Shown piece by piece: positions 11,934-18,856 of a stretch of 35,749 nucleotides of DNA; position 1 is the stretch's first letter, and every line of letters begins with the position of its first letter. Source of the DNA: Bacteroidales bacterium (lineage in GTDB: Bacteria; Bacteroidota; Bacteroidia; Bacteroidales; Paludibacteraceae); the NCBI GenBank assembly GCA_012518275.1, contig JAAYSS010000044.1, positions 1-35,749 on the forward strand. Reading direction: 5' to 3'. A program made the position numbers and the translations under genes. Below the pieces are notes generated by a model, which was given only the letters and a program-made list of their open reading frames with translations, did no database searches and was not told the DNA's origin.

Positions 11934-13007
11934 TCAATTCTTTTTAATCCACTCCGTAATCCATTGTCCTACTTCGCTGGTTTTGTAGGCTTTTCCGCCA
12001 TTGGCAATATCTTCGGTAACGATACCGGCTTCAAGGCTGGCGGTTACGGCATTGCGGATCAGCTGCCCTTCGGTTTTCATCTCGAAGGCATATTCAAACA
12101 TCAGTGCGGCGGAAAGGATGGCTGCAAGCGGATTGGCAATGTTCTTGCCTGCCGCCTGCGGATACGAGCCGTGAATAGGCTCAAATACCGACGTATGCAA
12201 CCCGATGGATGCCGATGGCAGCATGCCGAGCGAACCGGTGATGACGGATGCTTCGTCGGTCAGGATGTCGCCGAAGAGGTTTTCGGTTACCAGCACGTCG
12301 AAACTTTTGGGCCACTGGATGATGCGCATGGCTGCATTGTCCACAAACATATATTCGGTTTCCACGTCAGGGTATTGCGGGGCAATTTCCTGTGCTATCT
12401 GGCGCCACAAACGGGAAGTGGCAAGGATATTGGCTTTGTCCACTACGGTTACTTTCTTTTTTCGCTGCATGGCAAATTTAAAAGCCAGGTGAAGAATACG
12501 TTCCACTTCTTCGCGGGTGTACACGCACGTGTCGTAGGCGGTGTTTCCATCTTCGCTACGTCCCTGCGGACGCCCAAAGTAGAGCCCGCCCGTCAGTTCG
12601 CGGATGCAGATAAAGTCGGCACCATTCACCAAGTCGGCGCGCAACGGTGATTTGTGAAGCAGTTGTGAAAATGTGTTTACCGGACGAATATTGGCGTAAA
12701 GTCCGAGATTTTTTCGCATTCGCAGTAATCCCTGCTCCGGACGAACTTTCGCGTTTGGGTCGTTATCGTACTTCGGGTCTCCGATAGCGCCGAAAAGCAC
12801 AGCATCGGACTGCATACAGAGTTCGTGCGTTTCAGCAGGGTAGGGGTCGCCCGTGGCATCAATGGCACATGCGCCCGCGAGCGCTTCTTTGTATTCCAGC
12901 TTATGTCCGAATTTCTCACAAACGGCTTTTGTAACGTCTAAGGCTTGTTTAGTTATTTCCGGACCTATTCCGTCGCCCGGAAGGACGGCTATTTTTAATG
13001 TTTTCAT
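11934..13007 (-). CDS. leuB: 3-isopropylmalate dehydrogenase
   Basis: A 357-residue NAD-dependent beta-decarboxylating dehydrogenase that converts (2R,3S)-3-isopropylmalate to 2-oxoisocaproate precursor in leucine synthesis; the same enzyme can act on beta-methyl-D-malate from the citramalate route to give 2-oxobutyrate. Features seen: [11 protein letters not shown] at the N-terminus, the substrate loop with Arg residues ([16 protein letters not shown]), [16 protein letters not shown], and the metal/substrate segment [19 protein letters not shown], then [15 protein letters not shown], and [18 protein letters not shown] for cofactor. Length is normal. It is the last gene of the operon, 18 bases after cimA, followed by a strong terminator. 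Confidence 0.96.
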
Positions 13008-13025: not shown

Positions 13026-14642
13026 TTACGGCAGATTACCATACTTGATATTGGGCATACTGTCCGTTTCAATCATGTTAAGCATTTTTTCGGTGGCTTT
13101 GATGGCTGCCACGGTTTGGTCGCCGTCAAGTCCACGTGTTTTGAAAGTTTTGCCGGCGTATCGCCACGTGATAATGGTTTGTACGATGGCGTTGGTTTGT
13201 CCGCCGGGCGGGATGTCTACTTCGTAGTCGAGCAACTCCGGTGTCTGTTTCCCGAGTCTTTTGTACATTTTGTACATCGCTTTCGAGAAGGCATTATACT
13301 GTCCGGCGCCCGCTGCCGACTCTTCGTGTAATTCTCCGTTTATTTCTGCTTTCACGTTAGCCATGGGGCGTAGTCCTTGCGAGAGTGAAAGAGAATAATT
13401 GATGATGCGTACTGGTTTTTCTTCGTTGCCGTTCTGAATTACATCGGAGATGATATAAGGCAGGTCTTCGAGCGTAACTACTTCTTTTTGGTCGCCCAAT
13501 TCGATAACGCGTTGGGTAACCTGTTTCATGATTTCGTCATCCAACTCAATGCCGAGCGCCTGTAAGTTTTTACGGATATTGGCTTTGCCTGATGTCTTTC
13601 CGAGCGCATATGAGCGTGTTCGTCCGAAGCGTTCGGGCAATAAATCATTAAAGTAAAGATTTTTCTTGTTATCTCCATCGGCATGAATACCTGCTACTTG
13701 CGTGAAGACGTTATCTCCGATAATCGGTTTGTTGTTCGGGATGCGAATACCCGAGTAACTTTCAACCACCTTGCTGATGTGGTAAATTTTATTTTCAACA
13801 ATGTTAGTTTTGATTTTTAGGTGGTCCGAAATTACAGCCATTACCGAAGTTAACGGTGCGTTTCCGGCACGTTCTCCAAGTCCGTTTATCGTTACGTGTA
13901 CACCTTGCACGCCTGCTTTAACAGCTTCGTACACATTTCCAACTGCCATGTCGTAATCATTATGCGCGTGAAAATCAAAATGCAGGGTAGGGTAGCGCTC
14001 TATCATTTTACGGCAAAAACTTCCTGTTTCATCCGGATTGAGAATACCAAGTGTATCCGGAAGCATAAATCGTTGAATACCTTGATATTGAAGTTCATCT
14101 ACAATTTGATAAACGTACTCTTCCGAATTGCGCATACCGCTTGACCAATCTTCTAGGTAAATATTTACCTTCATACCCATTTCGTTGGCTTTTTTAACAA
14201 CTGCTTTTATATCGGAAAGATGCTCTTCGGCTGTTTTGCAAAGCTGGTGTTTGCAGTGGTTAAGCGAGCCTTTGCAAAGTAGATTGACCACACGGCAGCC
14301 GGTTTTGTAAATCCAGTCGAGCGATGCCGTGCCATCTACGAAGCCGAGAATTTCAATCTTGTCGATGTAGCCATTCGCTTTTGCCCATTGGGCAATTTTG
14401 CTTACGGAATTAAATTCCCCTTCCGAAACGCGTGCCGATGCAATTTCTATACGGTCAACGCCTAAATCTTCGAGTAATAGACGAGTAACACTTAATTTTT
14501 CTTGTGCCGAAAAAGAAACGGCTGAAGTCTGCTCGCCATCGCGAAGTGTAGTGTCCATGATTTCGACATAGCCATTCATTCTGCGGAAGGGGGAATTCTG
14601 GTCAGTTTGTTCAAAATTTTCGATATCCATGTTTGTTTTCAT
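13026..14642 (-). CDS. cimA: (R)-citramalate synthase, CimA type (isopropylmalate-synthase family)
   Basis: A 538-residue protein of the IPMS/citramalate/homocitrate synthase family: TIM barrel (about residues 20-300), linker, and LeuA-type dimer/regulatory domain (about 415-515). I prefer citramalate synthase (pyruvate + acetyl-CoA) to a second isopropylmalate synthase because it follows Leptospira CimA, as I remember it, almost block by block: [91 protein letters not shown]. In LiCMS, two Leu and a Tyr line the pyruvate pocket, and the blocks ILGF, NLL and YLED supply them here; the true LeuA of this operon has [10 protein letters not shown] at the last block. It sits between the yjbR remnant and leuB. 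An alternative start is Met5. Confidence 0.82.
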   Translation of the reverse strand: MKTNMDIENFEQTDQNSPFRRMNGYVEIMDTTLRDGEQTSAVSFSAQEKLSVTRLLLEDLGVDRIEIASARVSEGEFNSVSKIAQWAKANGYIDKIEILGFVDGTASLDWIYKTGCRVVNLLCKGSLNHCKHQLCKTAEEHLSDIKAVVKKANEMGMKVNIYLEDWSSGMRNSEEYVYQIVDELQYQGIQRFMLPDTLGILNPDETGSFCRKMIERYPTLHFDFHAHNDYDMAVGNVYEAVKAGVQGVHVTINGLGERAGNAPLTSVMAVISDHLKIKTNIVENKIYHISKVVESYSGIRIPNNKPIIGDNVFTQVAGIHADGDNKKNLYFNDLLPERFGRTRSYALGKTSGKANIRKNLQALGIELDDEIMKQVTQRVIELGDQKEVVTLEDLPYIISDVIQNGNEEKPVRIINYSLSLSQGLRPMANVKAEINGELHEESAAGAGQYNAFSKAMYKMYKRLGKQTPELLDYEVDIPPGGQTNAIVQTIITWRYAGKTFKTRGLDGDQTVAAIKATEKMLNMIETDSMPNIKYGNLP

Positions 14643-14657
14643 TATTTCTTCTCAAAG

Positions 14658-14830
14658 CTATTTCAGCATTGAATTTATCTTTTTAGGCAATTTCGCTTTT
14701 ACCAAATCATACGAATGCATAATTCACTCTTTTATCTGATTTTCATTACGAGTGTTTCGTCATCAAACGGGAAACTCTCATCTACATGTGGCAAAGAAAA
14801 GCAAAAATCTCGAAGTTCTTCTACATTCAT
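14658..14830 (-). pseudogene. Remnant of a YjbR/MmcQ-family gene with its middle deleted
   Basis: Two minus-strand pieces belong to one small family. The first (14830-14732, 32 codons and stop) reads [20 protein letters not shown] and then PFDDETLVMK, matching the N-terminus of YjbR/MmcQ proteins. The second (14720-14658, another frame) reads HSYDLVKAKLPKKI, matching their C-terminal HSYdLVvakLPkk. The family is usually about 115-120 residues, so around 60 central residues are missing and the frame is broken at the join. The start overlaps the leuD stop as ATGA, so the intact ancestor was translationally coupled to leuD. YjbR proteins are DNA-binding-fold proteins of unclear role. Confidence 0.75.
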
Positions 14831-15426
14831 TTAAATAAATTTGCATCGGATTTTTCCCACTTCTCAATCAGTTCTTTCTTGCTTAGCAAATAGTCGATAT
14901 CGTCAAAACCATTCAGCAGGCAATCTTTTTTGTAGGCATTGATTTCAAAAGTTTCGGCTTTACCGTTAGCATTATTGGTGATGGTTTGATTAAGCAAATC
15001 CACGGTCAGCGTAGTTTTTGGATTTTCATTGACTGAAGCAAAAATCTCAGCCAAAAACTCCGGTGAAACTACCACCGGAAGGATGCCGTTATTCAAAGCA
15101 TTGTTTTTGAATATATCAGCAAAGAAACTTGAAACCACCACTTTAAATCCATAGCCGGCAATTGCCCACGCGGCATGCTCGCGGCTACTTCCGGAACCGA
15201 AATTCTTTCCTGCCACAAGTATTTCACCCGTGTAAGTTGGGTCGTTCAATACGAAATCGACTTTGGGCGTTTTGTCTTTATTGTAACGCCAATCGGCAAA
15301 AAGATTATCTCCGAAACCGTTTTTATCGGTTGCTTTCAGAAAACGGGCAGGAATGATTTGATCGGTATCCACGTTCTCGATAGGAAGTGGAATAATAGTA
15401 CTTGTTATTGTTTTAAATTTTTCCAT
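14827..15426 (-). CDS. leuD: 3-isopropylmalate dehydratase small subunit
   Basis: I choose ATG 15426 ([20 protein letters not shown]), giving 199 residues, the usual LeuD size; an upstream in-frame ATG at 15447 adds seven unconserved residues. LeuD is the swivel domain that joins LeuC to isomerise 2-isopropylmalate to 3-isopropylmalate, and the same pair handles citramalate. Motifs: [14 protein letters not shown] (about residues 18-31), [16 protein letters not shown] (about 73-88), and [18 protein letters not shown] (about 101-118). It follows leuC after 91 bases. Its stop codon overlaps the start of the yjbR remnant by four bases (ATGA). Confidence 0.95.
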
Positions 15427-15517: not shown

Positions 15518-16945
15518 TTATGGTTTTGTAATACAACCGTTTATGGCTGTTGCTGCGGCTACGAGCGGACCGGCAAGAATGGTGCGTGCACCCGGTCCTT
15601 GGCGTCCTTCAAAGTTTCGATTTGATGTACTAACGGCATATTTTCCGGCAGGAATTTTATCGTCGTTCATTGCCAAGCAAGCCGAGCAACCCGGCTGACG
15701 AATGGCAAATCCGGCTTCTTCTAAAATTTTGTCCAACCCTTCTTCTTCAATCTGCTTACGTACTCTCCAGCTTCCCGGTACGAGCCAAGCTGTAATATTG
15801 TCTGCTTTTTTCTTCCCCTTCACATAATTGGCAAACAGGCGGAAATCTTCGATGCGCCCGTTGGTGCAGCTGCCGAGAAACACATAGTCAATCGGCTTTC
15901 CAAGTAGTTTTTCCCCAGGTGCAAAGCCCATATAATCCAACGACTTTTGGAATGAAATACGTCCGGCTGCATCGATCTCATCCAATGTCGGGATGCTATC
16001 GCTGATACCCATTCCCATTCCCGGGTTGGTGCCGTAAGTTATCATCGGCTGAATTTCGCTTGCGTCAAATTCAAGTTCGCGGTCGAAGACGGCATCATCA
16101 TCCGATTTCAGCGTTTTCCAATAAGCAAGTTTTTTATCCCACTCTTCGCCTTTCGGTGCAAATTCACGTCCTTTCACGTAGCTGAACGTTGTTTCATCCG
16201 GCGCAATCAAACCACCGCGCGCACCCATTTCGATGGAAAGATTACAAACCGTCATCCGTTCTTCCATGGTCATATTACGGATGGCTTCGCCGGCATATTC
16301 TACGAAATAACCGGTAGCGCCGCCCGTGGTCAGCTTGGAAATCATATAAAGCGCTAAGTCTTTTGATGTTACACCAGGATTGAGCTTTCCGTTGAAAGTG
16401 ATGCGCATCGTTTTCGGACGAGTTTGTAAGATGCATTGCGTGGCAAGCACCATTTCCACTTCGCTTGTGCCGATACCAAAGGCAATAGTGCCGAAAGCGC
16501 CATGTGTGGAAGTGTGGCTGTCGCCGCAAACAATGGTCATTCCAGGTTGCGTGAATCCATTTTCAGGTCCTATAATGTGAACCACGCCATTTTTCTCATG
16601 ACCGAGCGGGTAGTAAATCGGCATCCCGAAATCTTTCGCGTTTTTGGCAAACTGGTCTAATTGGTTGCGCGAAATCGGGTCTTTTACCGGCAGTTCCTGA
16701 TTGATAGTCGGTGTGTTGTGGTCGGCAGTCATCGTCGTCTTTTCCGGACGAAAAACCTTCAATCTCCGTTCACGAAGTCCGTTGAATGCCTGCGGACTGG
16801 TAACTTCGTGGCAGAAATGGCGGTCTATGTATAGTTGTGTCGGACCGTTTTCAATAGTCGAAACCACGTGTGCGTCCCAGATTTTATCGAAAAGAGTTTT
16901 CCCTTGTTTTTTTGAAAGGGAAATTTGTTGTGGATTATTTGTCAT
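15518..16945 (-). CDS. leuC: 3-isopropylmalate dehydratase large subunit
   Basis: A 475-residue aconitase-family protein carrying the [4Fe-4S] cluster; with LeuD it converts 2- to 3-isopropylmalate. The substrate/cluster motifs are all present: [14 protein letters not shown] near residue 41, [20 protein letters not shown] near 128-147, [20 protein letters not shown], the cluster ligands Cys in [13 protein letters not shown] and the CxxC pair in [12 protein letters not shown], and [18 protein letters not shown] near the C-terminus. Length is normal for bacterial LeuC. The gene begins 12 bases after leuA and is followed by leuD, the standard order. Confidence 0.97.
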
Positions 16946-16957
16946 ATTTTAGAATTT

Positions 16958-18451
16958 TTATTTTACGAATTTATTAATTGCATCAACATAGGCTTCGAGT
17001 GATGCGGCTACAATATCGGTATTTGCACCGAAACCGTAGTACACACCGCCGTTATGCTCAACCTGCATATGCACTTTACCTACGTCATCGCTTCCACGGC
17101 TGATGGCTTGTATGGTAAATTCTTGCAAGGTCATATTGCGCTTGATAATTTGTTTCAGTGCCTTGATGGCGGCATCTACCGGACCATTTCCGCTGGCAGC
17201 TGCTTCAAATTTCTCGCCGGCAATCAAAAGTCCCACGCTTGCTACTGACTTTACGCCAATTCCTGATGTAACTTGCAGGTAATCAACTTTTATTCGTTGA
17301 TTTTCCGCACGTTCCATTCCGGCAAGCATCATCACATCGTCGTCGTTGATGTCTTTTTTCTTATCAGCTAATTTCAGGAATTTTTCGTAAATTTCATCCA
17401 ATTTTTCGTTATCTACTTCGATACCGAGTACATTCAAACGATGTTTCAGTGCTGCTCTGCCACTTCTTGCCGTAAGCAGAATGGAATTTTTGTTGATACC
17501 CACATCGGTCGGATTCATAATTTCGTAGCTTTCTCGGTTTTTCAATACACCATCTTGATGAATTCCGGATGAATGTGCAAAAGCATTTCGTCCTACCACT
17601 GCTTTATTGGGTTGTACGGGCATATTCATCAGACTAGAAACCAACCGGCTGGTCGGATAAATCTTTTGTGTGTTGATGTTTGTTTCAATGCCAATTCCGT
17701 TGTGGCATTTGAGAATCATTACGATTTCTTCCAACGATGTATTACCGGCTCTTTCACCGATGCCGTTGATAGTAACTTCCACTTGGCGTGCACCATTCAG
17801 GATTCCTGCCATCGTGTTTGCGGTAGCCATTCCAAGGTCGTTGTGGCAGTGGGTAGAAATCACAGCTTTGTGGATGTTTTTTACATTTTCATAAAGATAT
17901 TTAATTTTTTCGCCATATTGCCACGGCAAGCAGTAGCCCGTCGTGTCGGGGATATTAACTACAGTGGCGCCAGCTTTGATGACGGCTTCTACCACGCGGG
18001 CAAGATATTCGTTGTCGGTTCGACCGGCATCTTCGCAGTAAAACTCGACATCTTCTACGTATTTTTTTGCGTACTTGGTAGCCAAAACAGCACGTTCCAG
18101 GATATCTTCTTGAGTTGAATTAAATTTGTACTTGATATGTTGCTCCGATGTCCCGATTCCGGTGTGGATACGTTTCCGTTTCGCGTATTGAAGTGCTTCT
18201 GCTGCCGTGTCAATGTCTTTTTCTACACCGCGCGTAAGAGCGCAGATTGTGGGCCAAGTTACGGCTTTGGAAATTTCTACCACTGAATTGAAATCACCCG
18301 GACTTGAAATTGGAAATCCCGCTTCAATCACATCAACACCAAGTCCTTCCAATGCTTTGGCTACTTGAATTTTTTCAACGGTGTTGAGCTGACAACCGGG
18401 TACTTGTTCGCCGTCGCGCAGCGTAGTGTCAAAAATAAAAAGTTTTTCCAT
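16958..18451 (-). CDS. leuA: 2-isopropylmalate synthase
   Basis: A 497-residue enzyme condensing 2-oxoisovalerate and acetyl-CoA, the first committed step to leucine. The barrel starts [20 protein letters not shown] (metal and active-site Arg/Asp), followed by [50 protein letters not shown] (His-x-His metal ligands) and [14 protein letters not shown]. After the linker ([19 protein letters not shown]) comes the C-terminal LeuA dimer domain, about residues 385-497, where leucine normally binds as feedback inhibitor. It is the first enzyme gene of the operon. The leader peptide ORF and a hairpin lie immediately upstream, so expression is probably set by attenuation as well as feedback. Confidence 0.96.
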
Positions 18452-18497
18452 ATCTTTTTACGATTAGTTACTTTTTAATTCGATAAAATTCTTTTTC

Positions 18498-18538
18498 AAA
18501 ATACAAAGCCTTTCTCTGGTGTGAGAAAGGCTTTGTAT
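18498..18538 (-). terminator. Putative attenuator hairpin upstream of leuA
   Basis: On the minus strand a perfect 16-bp stem (arms at 18538-18523 and 18516-18501) with a 6-base loop ends in a U-rich stretch (TTGTATTTTG). The GC core is AGCCTTTCTC / GAGAAAGGCT. It lies 30 bases after the leader-peptide stop and about 50 bases before the leuA ATG, where a terminator would cut off the whole operon. A possible competing pairing is TTTGGTAT (18567-18560), just after the leader stop, with ATACAAA (18538-18532) in the terminator's 5' arm (7 bp, one bulged G). A ribosome resting at the leader stop would mask it. Confidence 0.75.
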
Positions 18539-18568
18539 TTCATTTATCGATATATACACATACCAAAC

Positions 18569-18637
18569 TCACTTCGCCTTGATTTGCAAGAGAATAATAA
18601 TATCGAGTAAGATAATGTGTAAGTTGCTATTTGCCAT
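18569..18637 (-). CDS. leuL: Leu/Ile-rich leader peptide of the leucine operon
   Basis: A 22-codon ORF, ATG 18637 to TGA 18569, starting about 15 bases after the predicted transcription start. The core reads LHIILLDIIILLQI: five Leu codons (TTA, TTA, CTC, CTC, TTG) and six Ile codons (ATT, ATC, ATT, ATT, ATT, ATC), half of the peptide. It is followed after 30 bases by a strong hairpin and then leuA. This is the classical design of a ribosome-mediated attenuator: scarcity of charged tRNA-Leu or tRNA-Ile would stall the ribosome and prevent terminator formation. Sensing both amino acids suits an operon holding leuABCD and cimA. Too short for a database-style call; the evidence is position and composition. 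The symbol is by analogy. Confidence 0.8.
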   Translation of the reverse strand: MANSNLHIILLDIIILLQIKAK

Positions 18638-18657
18638 TGTTTACTTTTATTTCTTTG

Positions 18658-18688
18658 CAAAGATAGTGCGTATTTTTAAAATATCAAA
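18658..18688 (-). promoter_or_regulatory. Promoter of the leuACD-cimA-leuB operon
   Basis: On the minus strand TTTG (18688-18685), a 19-base spacer and TATCTTTG (18665-18658) give an excellent Bacteroidetes promoter. The predicted start is near 18652, shortly upstream of the leader-peptide ATG. The gene-free stretch 18452-18923 thus contains, right to left, the DUF937 promoter region, AT-rich sequence with a small palindrome at 18811-18825, this promoter, the leader ORF and the attenuator. Confidence 0.8.
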
Positions 18689-18856
18689 CAAAAATACAGG
18701 AAAAAGGTTTAATTTTATCACAAAATAATAGTTTTTATTGCAAAACACTCAAAAAAAATGCTATTTCAGTTATAAATCTTTCGTAATTGAAATTATTATT
18801 GTTCTCGAAAAATGAAATTTTCATTGGTTTGTGTTTTTATGAAAAATATTTTACAA

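Follow-up and report, generated by a model that had tools for sequence, protein, structure and literature searches.

A predicted leucine and isoleucine attenuator upstream of leuA in Bacteroidales

The window (the whole stretch of 35,749 nucleotides that we analyzed) comes from a Bacteroidales genome of 2.40 Mb in 137 contigs, which is 89.8% complete. On the minus strand, a short leader with a hairpin is followed by leuA, leuC, leuD, a cimA-like gene, and leuB, in that order (Table 1). The leader lies on the presumed transcript of leuA, 117 nt 5' of the gene, whose start is at 18451. The nearest named relatives of this leuA are from Bacteroidetes or Bacteroidales MAGs, several of which are labelled Paludibacter.

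Table 1. Features of the leader and of the genes behind it (window positions).
Feature	Position	Strand	Basis or remark
Bacteroidota-type promoter	18658..18688	(-)	TTTG at 18688-18685, 19 nt, TATCTTTG at 18665-18658; by sequence motif
Leader peptide ORF MANSNLHIILLDIIILLQIKAK	18569..18637	(-)	22 codons; 5 Leu, 6 Ile, 0 Val
Stop codon of the leader ORF, TGA	18571-18569	(-)	sequence
Region 1, ORF segments UACACAU, AUC, and ACUC, partners of region 2	18605..18621	(-)	fold of the window leader, alignment A1, and cognate test
Region 2, GAAGUGAG (18575-18568) across the stop codon, and UUUGGUAUGUGUA	18555..18575	(-)	partner is region 1 or region 3
Region 3, terminator 5' arm and loop bases	18521..18540	(-)	CUCAC 18525-18521 pairs with GUGAG
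Extensions in region 3	GCC 18531-18529, AUACA 18538-18534	(-)	in the window's fold, lengthen the antiterminator
Region 4, terminator hairpin, 3' arm	18499..18516	(-)	18 perfect pairs with 18540-18523
leuA, 2-isopropylmalate synthase, first gene controlled	16958..18451	(-)	NF002086 735 bits (cut-off 532); TIGR00973 673 bits (cut-off 599)
leuC, isopropylmalate dehydratase large subunit	15518..16945	(-)	TIGR00170 above cut-off
leuD, isopropylmalate dehydratase small subunit	14827..15426	(-)	TIGR00171 above cut-off
cimA-like, probable (R)-citramalate synthase (isoleucine route)	13026..14642	(-)	best matches among NCBIfam models and solved structures
leuB, 3-isopropylmalate dehydrogenase	11934..13007	(-)	TIGR00169 above cut-off

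The downstream genes are predicted to make the amino acids whose codons fill the leader: leuA, leuC, leuD, and leuB score above curated cut-offs, and the cimA-like gene is assigned by best match. LeuCD and LeuB are enzymes of leucine synthesis, and they also take part, together with CimA, in making isoleucine via citramalate. The best NCBIfam model for the cimA-like gene is that of Leptospira CimA (NF042433; 668 bits, under the cut-off of 950), and the LeuA models reach at most 341 bits. The best match among solved structures is the citramalate synthase of Leptospira (PDB:3ble; 394 bits, with the next at 190). We predict that the fourth gene, whose product has 538 aa, is probably a citramalate synthase. 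The threonine dehydratase model TIGR02079 gave only weak matches in the window's genome (55 and 24 bits; the cut-off is 441). These matches fit isoleucine synthesis via citramalate and are no proof of it, as the genome is incomplete and just 3 of 14 control genomes reach the cut-off.

We then examined the leader itself. The promoter that the sequence-only reading had described (TTTG, 19 nt, and TATCTTTG) is present on the minus strand, and its count of five Leu and six Ile codons in a 22-codon ORF is correct. That reading had also placed a perfect 16-bp hairpin before leuA. The hairpin is indeed perfect, but it is longer: an 18/18-bp inverted repeat (arms 18540-18523 and 18516-18499) with a loop of 6 nt. 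It is the longest perfect hairpin of the window (stem of at least 10 bp, loop of 3-12 nt), and the next distinct one has 14 bp. The leader ORF also has the highest density of Leu and Ile codons among the window's 392 short ORFs, with 11 in 15 codons versus 8 for the next ORF. (We compared ATG-started ORFs of 12-40 codons on both strands and counted nested starts apart.) The folding energy of the leader is -50.8 kcal/mol, versus -30.3 +/- 4.0 for 200 shuffles (z = -5.1). By ORF density, hairpin length, and folding energy, the layout is more than chance. A simple scan for terminators reported no terminator-like site, and our own hairpin filter initially rejected the window's hairpin because its stem runs through the U-rich stretch, which is followed by TGAAAAAG. 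The U-tail of the window's hairpin is weak. Many relatives have clear U-tails, and the position and pairing of the hairpin are conserved.

An equivalent leader (ORF and hairpin) lies before leuA in 66 of 80 named loci, which are labelled Paludibacter, Bacteroides, Phocaeicola, Prevotella, Tannerella, and Dysgonamonadaceae, among others. When aligned, these relatives show conservation of the short Leu/Ile ORF and the hairpin, with covariation, which the sequence-only reading had suggested looking for. (The 14 leaderless loci are L014, L017, L020, L028, L034, L039, L043, L055, L065, L073-L076, and L079; L020 and L034 had just 148 and 50 nt of upstream sequence. Six leaders that the filter missed or misplaced, at L032, L054, L066, L071, L072, and L081, were placed by eye.) At L014, a tRNA-Glu gene (found by ARAGORN at L014:2308-2380) lies 5' of leuA where the relatives have the leader ORF, and a terminator-like hairpin follows it. 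The promoter motif, with TTG 17-22 nt 5' of TAnnTTTG and no more than 90 nt from the leader's ATG, precedes the leader in 62 of 66 loci. Random 90-nt windows drawn from these loci have it in 85 of 6600 cases. (Of the 67 aligned leaders, L031 was too short for this comparison.)

Several features of the codons indicate that the leader ORF is translated. Among 18 leaders that share one layout, the ratio of synonymous to non-synonymous variants in the Leu/Ile core is 19:15 in frame, and 5:25 and 3:24 in the other two frames. Across the 67 leaders, CTA accounts for 32% of the Leu codons, versus 2% in the corresponding leuA genes. (CTA is absent from the window's own leader.) Similarly, ATT accounts for 80% of the Ile codons in the leaders and 43% in the leuA genes. 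It is the synonymous substitutions and the CTA bias that suggest translation; pairing of region 1 could cause part of the codon bias. Overall, these leaders form a defined family of predicted attenuators, spread over many families within a single order.

Elsewhere in the class, we found a clear leader at just two of 29 loci from other orders (L099-L118 and L124-L132). These two, L103 and L104, both belong to family f17 and have ilvD...cimA in the operon. Four of the 29 loci lacked the start of ilvD; that start is covered by L196-L199, and there is no leader there.

We scored three alternative helices on an alignment of 38 of the 67 sequences (A1). For the 3:4 terminator helix, 87.5% of the alignment's cells are paired, versus 35-72% when the strands are slid against each other. 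For the 2:3 antiterminator (GAAGUGAG with CUCACUUC), the figures are 92.4% versus 35-63%. For the 1:2 protector helix, 77.4% are paired in the relatives' register, versus 21-58% when slid; the register of this pairing in the window is two columns off the one scored on A1. The 1:2 helix does not exceed within-column shuffles on A1. In the 2:3 helix, columns 81:137 hold U-A in 30 sequences and C-G in 8, with zero misfits, although the 8 C-G rows may represent one clade and one change. The 2:3 helix has 12 cells that changed on both sides, versus 2.6 in shuffles. Counted as pairs, just 3 changed on both sides, a number that was met in 74 of 500 shuffles. Further compensated versions of the 2:3 helix are found in the wider set, at L078 (GAAAUGGG with CCCAUUUC) and L044 (GUAGUAAG with CUUGCUAC).

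The conserved core of the antiterminator is, in the window, a 5-bp pairing of GUGAG (18572-18568), which lies across the stop codon, with CUCAC (18525-18521). The sequence-only reading had instead proposed UUUGGUAU with AUACAAA. We rejected this as the conserved pairing: 59.1% of its cells in A1 are paired, versus 44-55% when slid by 1-3 columns, and the covariation scores are similar. It does exceed within-column shuffles (0 of 500); relatedness among the sequences can suffice to pass such a control in the absence of structure. In the window's fold, AUACA does pair, but its partner is UGUAU (18558-18554).

As an alignment-free test, we compared the pairing energy of each leader's region 2 with its own terminator arm and with all the other terminator arms. 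The set of 123 leaders comprised 36 from operons of the window's type, 11 from operons without cimA, 10 from operons headed by ilv genes, and 66 named ones. The energy is -15.5 kcal/mol for cognate pairs versus -12.4 for permuted ones, and 0 of 5000 permutations were as good. Some genomes appear twice in this set, as named and as sampled loci, so the permutation test should be more conservative. For the 57 sampled loci alone, the energies are -16.4 versus -12.2, and no permutation was as good. The cognate pair beats the median non-cognate pair in 97 of the 123 leaders: 31/36 of the window's type, 7/11 without cimA, 9/10 headed by ilv genes, and 50/66 named. (L150, L151, and L104 were outside this test, as no hairpin of theirs passed the filter; L150 and L151 were kept in the codon comparison below.) The 1:2 helix also gives better cognate energies (-15.4 versus -12.35 kcal/mol permuted, 0 of 3000). 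The stop codon is within 30 nt of the start of the region 2 strand in all 123 leaders, which the zone searched partly ensures. In 91 of the 123, it overlaps region 2 or lies at most 6 nt 5' of it.

We also folded the window's leader RNA, as the sequence-only reading had suggested, and it takes the expected fold in each ribosome state. With a ribosome on the Ile and Leu codons, the antiterminator forms (GUGAG:CUCAC, GGU:GCC, and UGUAU:AUACA; -12.2 kcal/mol). With a ribosome at the stop codon, so that region 2 is hidden, the terminator forms alone (-27.6 kcal/mol). If no ribosome is present, the fold contains both the 1:2 helix and the terminator. As an example of the switch, the window is not strong: its antiterminator is short, its U-tail is poor, and its cognate energy in the alignment-free test, -14.7, is barely better than the median non-cognate energy of -13.7.

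We propose the following mechanism. RNA polymerase would start about 10-20 nt before the leader ORF (judging from the promoter motif), with a ribosome behind it. If leucine and isoleucine are plentiful, then the ribosome would reach the stop codon and cover region 2, and the 3:4 terminator would form before leuA. If either amino acid is scarce, then the ribosome would stall in the run of Leu and Ile codons and cover region 1. The 2:3 antiterminator would form, and leuA-leuC-leuD-cimA-leuB would be transcribed. If there is no ribosome, then region 1 would pair with region 2 and the terminator would form. These three mutually exclusive choices of helix (1:2, 2:3, and 3:4) fit the comparative data. 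With a probability of roughly 0.9, we think that the leader senses the charged tRNAs of leucine and isoleucine through ribosome-mediated transcription attenuation of the classical kind. The sequence-only reading had proposed an attenuator that tests both amino acids, and the conserved leaders, the covarying 2:3 helix, and the 1:2 and 3:4 helices support it.

We considered three other ways to explain the hairpin. An 18-bp stem could by itself terminate transcription or protect the RNA, so the hairpin might be an ordinary terminator or stability element with the short ORF as an incidental neighbor. This is very improbable given the conservation of the ORF, its synonymous variation, the locus-specific 1:2 and 2:3 pairing, the position of the stop codon, and the way that the codons follow the genes of the operon (see below). 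Another idea is that translation of the leader acts on the initiation of leuA translation, or that the peptide product itself acts, since the leader is on the same presumed transcript and close to leuA. But the distance from the hairpin to leuA ranges from 14 to 254 nt among the placed leaders, and the conserved part ends at the terminator-type hairpin rather than at the start of leuA, so we give this idea very little weight.

The third explanation is that a riboswitch, a T-box, or a protein-binding leader controls the terminator and that translation is not involved. In Firmicutes, leu and ilv operons are controlled by T-boxes and riboswitches. In the window, though, no Rfam family (T-boxes and riboswitches included) reaches its gathering score, and in A1 we saw no conserved aptamer-like core outside regions 1-4. 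We consider this explanation highly unlikely as well. A search of 18440-18700 gave 25 matches with E-values up to 10, and the Leu_leader family (RF00512) is not one of them. The lowest E-value on the leader's strand belongs to Phe_leader (RF01859; E = 0.047, 24.2 bits where 55 are needed), over 18499-18630. This match shows a shared layout, not membership.

If the leader is an attenuator, then its codons should relate to the genes that it controls. We sought leuA and cimA in 159 genomes of the order (67 and 57 had matches at E = 1e-150), and cimA also in the genomes of 50 of the 66 named loci with a leader. (G265, G282, and G362, among the 67 genomes with LeuA, were left out for the leuA leader, and L189 was left out because it is at a contig end.) We sorted operons by gene content, counted codons in the densest 18 codons of each leader, and compared family means with the Mann-Whitney test. 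In leuACD-cimA-B operons (36 loci, 22 families), the leaders average 4.8 Leu, 4.4 Ile, and 0.3 Val codons. In leu operons that lack cimA and are not headed by ilv genes (13 loci, 8 families), they average 6.1 Leu, 1.25 Ile, and 0.1 Val. In operons headed by ilv genes (11 loci, 9 families), they average 4.2 Leu, 4.1 Ile, and 1.6 Val. Ile codons are more frequent if cimA is in the operon than if it is elsewhere or absent (4.4 versus 1.25 per leader, p = 3.4e-4; the latter group has 8 families only, and kinship was handled just by averaging within families). Val codons are more frequent in operons headed by ilv genes (1.6 versus 0.3 and 0.1, p = 9.3e-4). Counts over the whole peptide agree: at least three Ile codons are present in 35/36, 3/13, and 10/11 leaders of the three groups, and any Val codon in 10/36, 4/13, and 10/11. 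Examples are the leaders of L140 (leuA alone; MQSNYLLPFLLWTLLLNNLREKHGCL), L146 (leuACDB; MNTTLLSLSLTSGLTLSK), and L215 (ilvD...leuB; MTLFASLLLVVIIILVVNH). A caveat is that our choice of leaders favored a high density of Leu, Ile, and Val codons (at second-site loci, we took the largest count reached with any one of ten sets of residues), so this comparison tests the make-up of leaders only and is not an unbiased test of their presence.

These data bear on a simpler reading, in which the leader senses leucine only and the Ile codons are filler that is kept by base pairing or drift. Leu codons are present in all 60 of the sampled leaders that were counted (2-14 each), the Ile codons are mostly ATT in a conserved ATTATTATT run, and E. 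coli leuL senses leucine alone. Nevertheless, the Ile codons become fewer in operons without cimA and the Leu codons do not. Also, most of the window's ATT run is unpaired in ribosome-free folds, so pairing does not seem to demand it. And the pathway supplies a reason for testing isoleucine as well as leucine: leuC, leuD, and leuB serve the leucine pathway as well as, together with CimA, the citramalate pathway to isoleucine. We consider the leucine-only reading unlikely, though less so than the three alternatives above, and we favor a leader that senses both amino acids.

The sensed amino acids thus tend to match the predicted products of the controlled genes, as a statistical rule with exceptions. 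Ile codons do not strictly require cimA in the operon, as L144 and L145 (family f68) keep them while their cimA is at another site. Nor do ilv genes strictly come with Val codons: L216 is headed by ilvD and has no Val codon, and L149 has ilvD and ilvB behind leuB, yet its leader has no Ile and one Val codon. We also expected separate cimA or leuCD-cimA-leuB operons to have an Ile leader of their own, but we found no leader at such operons at L083, L085, L087, L089, L133-L135, L200, L201, or L203-L208. (The form headed by ilvD in G330 does carry such a leader, L218.) In the sample of the order, no leader was found at 5 of 35 loci where leuA heads an operon with cimA, or at 7 of 16 loci without cimA and not headed by ilv genes.

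A broader hypothesis, towards which we lean, is that leader peptides of Bacteroidales act as an amino-acid address that follows the content of the operon: Leu for leu genes alone, Leu and Ile with cimA, and Val (together with Leu and Ile) in operons headed by ilvD. The leader would be rewritten as genes move between operons. Operons that genes have left or joined amount to natural experiments, in which the amino acids that are apparently sensed change. If the hypothesis is correct, then leader codons could predict the isoleucine route and the products of uncharacterized operons, and could help to annotate pathways in uncultured Bacteroidales. How the codons of a leader relate to the genes of its operon most deserves a test. 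Attenuation depends on the coupling of transcription and translation, and genetically tractable Bacteroides species would allow a direct test of this coupling in the phylum.

We also looked for other leaders with a covariance model built from A1. In the window's genome, the model finds the window's leader (E = 5.8e-18, as expected, since this leader is in the model) and a second site that is outside the model (E = 4.5e-6). This second site (L219/L223, C11:2436-2575) is an attenuator-like leader on another contig, directly before ilvD. Its peptide, MNLNINILLVITLLVENQR, has Leu, Ile, and, unlike the window's, Val. The sequence-only reading had missed this sister leader, as well as the cimA in the operon and the 1:2 protector helix. 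Across the order, the model has matches at E <= 0.01 in 73 of 159 genomes, which is not a count of leaders, as many of the matches away from leuA are weak and some are on the opposite strand of a hairpin.

Among 18 sites away from leuA in other genomes, which we picked by hand from the stronger matches, 15 precede a gene that is 61-79% identical to ilvD from the window's genome. We read both leaders in 11 genomes, including the window's, and in all 11 the ilvD leader has more Val codons than its leu counterpart (Wilcoxon p = 0.001). It has fewer Ile codons in 8 of 11 genomes (p = 0.02, with help from one trimming choice). Specifically, the ilvD leaders of G232, G310, and G334 were cut to an internal ATG, and a GTG was read as Met in G350. 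These cuts take Leu, Ile, or Val codons away from the ilvD leaders; the one in G232 loses three Ile codons, which favors the Ile comparison but not the Val comparison. (This set omits G282, G265, and G362, whose leu leaders were not fetched; G321, in which no leu leader was found; and G320, which has no LeuA match.) Two ilvD leaders, L237 and L238 (from G238 and G321), have runs of seven and five Val codons (MKLLNTVLVVVVVVVLKNIE and MKLSSIILVVVVVLFANRTR).

How do these leaders relate to known systems? Attenuators of Proteobacteria include the leader of E. coli leuABCD (leuL; Leu_leader, RF00512) and the trp, his, and pheA leaders. Like these, the leaders described here have codons for the product, mutually exclusive protector, antiterminator, and terminator helices, and a stop codon that adjoins the antiterminator. 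Rare CTA codons for leucine, as in leuL, are seen across the family (if not in the window). Unlike leuL, the leader has a Bacteroidota promoter, codes for two amino acids, has cimA in the operon, has a GUGAG:CUCAC core across the stop codon, and does not match the Leu_leader family of Rfam. A single leader tests more than one amino acid in E. coli too, as those of ilvGMEDA and ilvBN do with several branched-chain amino acids. Here, however, the code is Leu and Ile with little or no Val, before leuACD-cimA-B, and it is the ilvD leaders that are richer in Val. What is new is that the dual Leu/Ile code fits an operon that would also make isoleucine via citramalate. In other words, the logic of the pathway would explain a sensor of two amino acids, as the citramalate route to isoleucine is encoded in the same operon.

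The mechanism is known, and the family and the taxon appear to be new, although an earlier survey may overlap. Lopatovskaya, Seliverstov, and Lyubetsky (2010, Mol Biol 44:128; cited in PMC4833913) reportedly surveyed attenuation of amino acid and aminoacyl-tRNA operons in bacteria, to judge by the title; the survey may include Bacteroidetes, and it could already list a leu leader in the phylum. The Bacteroid-trp motif (RF01692), which is linked to trp, is not among the Rfam matches in the window. It is listed as a candidate cis-regulatory RNA of Bacteroidetes (PMC2864571). According to a passage of Naville and Gautheret, leader peptide systems had, to their knowledge, been shown just in Proteobacteria and Actinobacteria before their case from Firmicutes, the ermC leader apart (PMC2965389). 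Closer to our family, a transcriptome paper on Flavobacterium psychrophilum has a passage on strong clues that amino acid operons are attenuated by leader peptides (PMC9723704), and a passage on the map of B. thetaiotaomicron describes sORFs in long 5' UTRs as reminiscent of leader peptides (PMC7366714). These candidates are from the same phylum; compared to those passages, the leu/ile leader, the helices, and the link between codons and operons are given here only. Among the titles and abstract openings of the literature searched (few subscription journals and no supplements), we found no description of this leader. Within that literature, this would be an attenuator family in a phylum where leader peptides were only hinted at.

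Finally, a few other sites are of interest. In G211, a leader rich in Phe and Tyr (MRKFLFTYTNFYYFWFFKQKRGLYV; L243, C139:3709-3841) precedes a gene closest to prephenate dehydratases (213 bits; the cut-off is 219), and this is likely a pheA attenuator of the same layout. At L150 and L151 (family f136), Leu-rich ORFs (LALLLLLLSNLLLLR and ANILNRRFLLL) precede leuA, with no terminator hairpin that passes our filter; perhaps they use a different mechanism that does not involve a terminator. In the window's genome, a weak match to the A1 model (L226, C115:46655-46748; E = 0.003) has a short ORF rich in Ile and Leu. It precedes a gene that looks by eye like lumazine synthase, and the match may be due to chance. 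In G309, whose leuA showed no leader, a Leu-rich leader that ends in ...NILSAALLLALLLNRKLRGY (L235, C10:228490-228632) precedes a gene similar to class I/II aminotransferases, with an unclear substrate. Among the NCBIfam models shown for this gene, none is over its cut-off, and the leader suggests a role for the gene in branched-chain amino acid metabolism.
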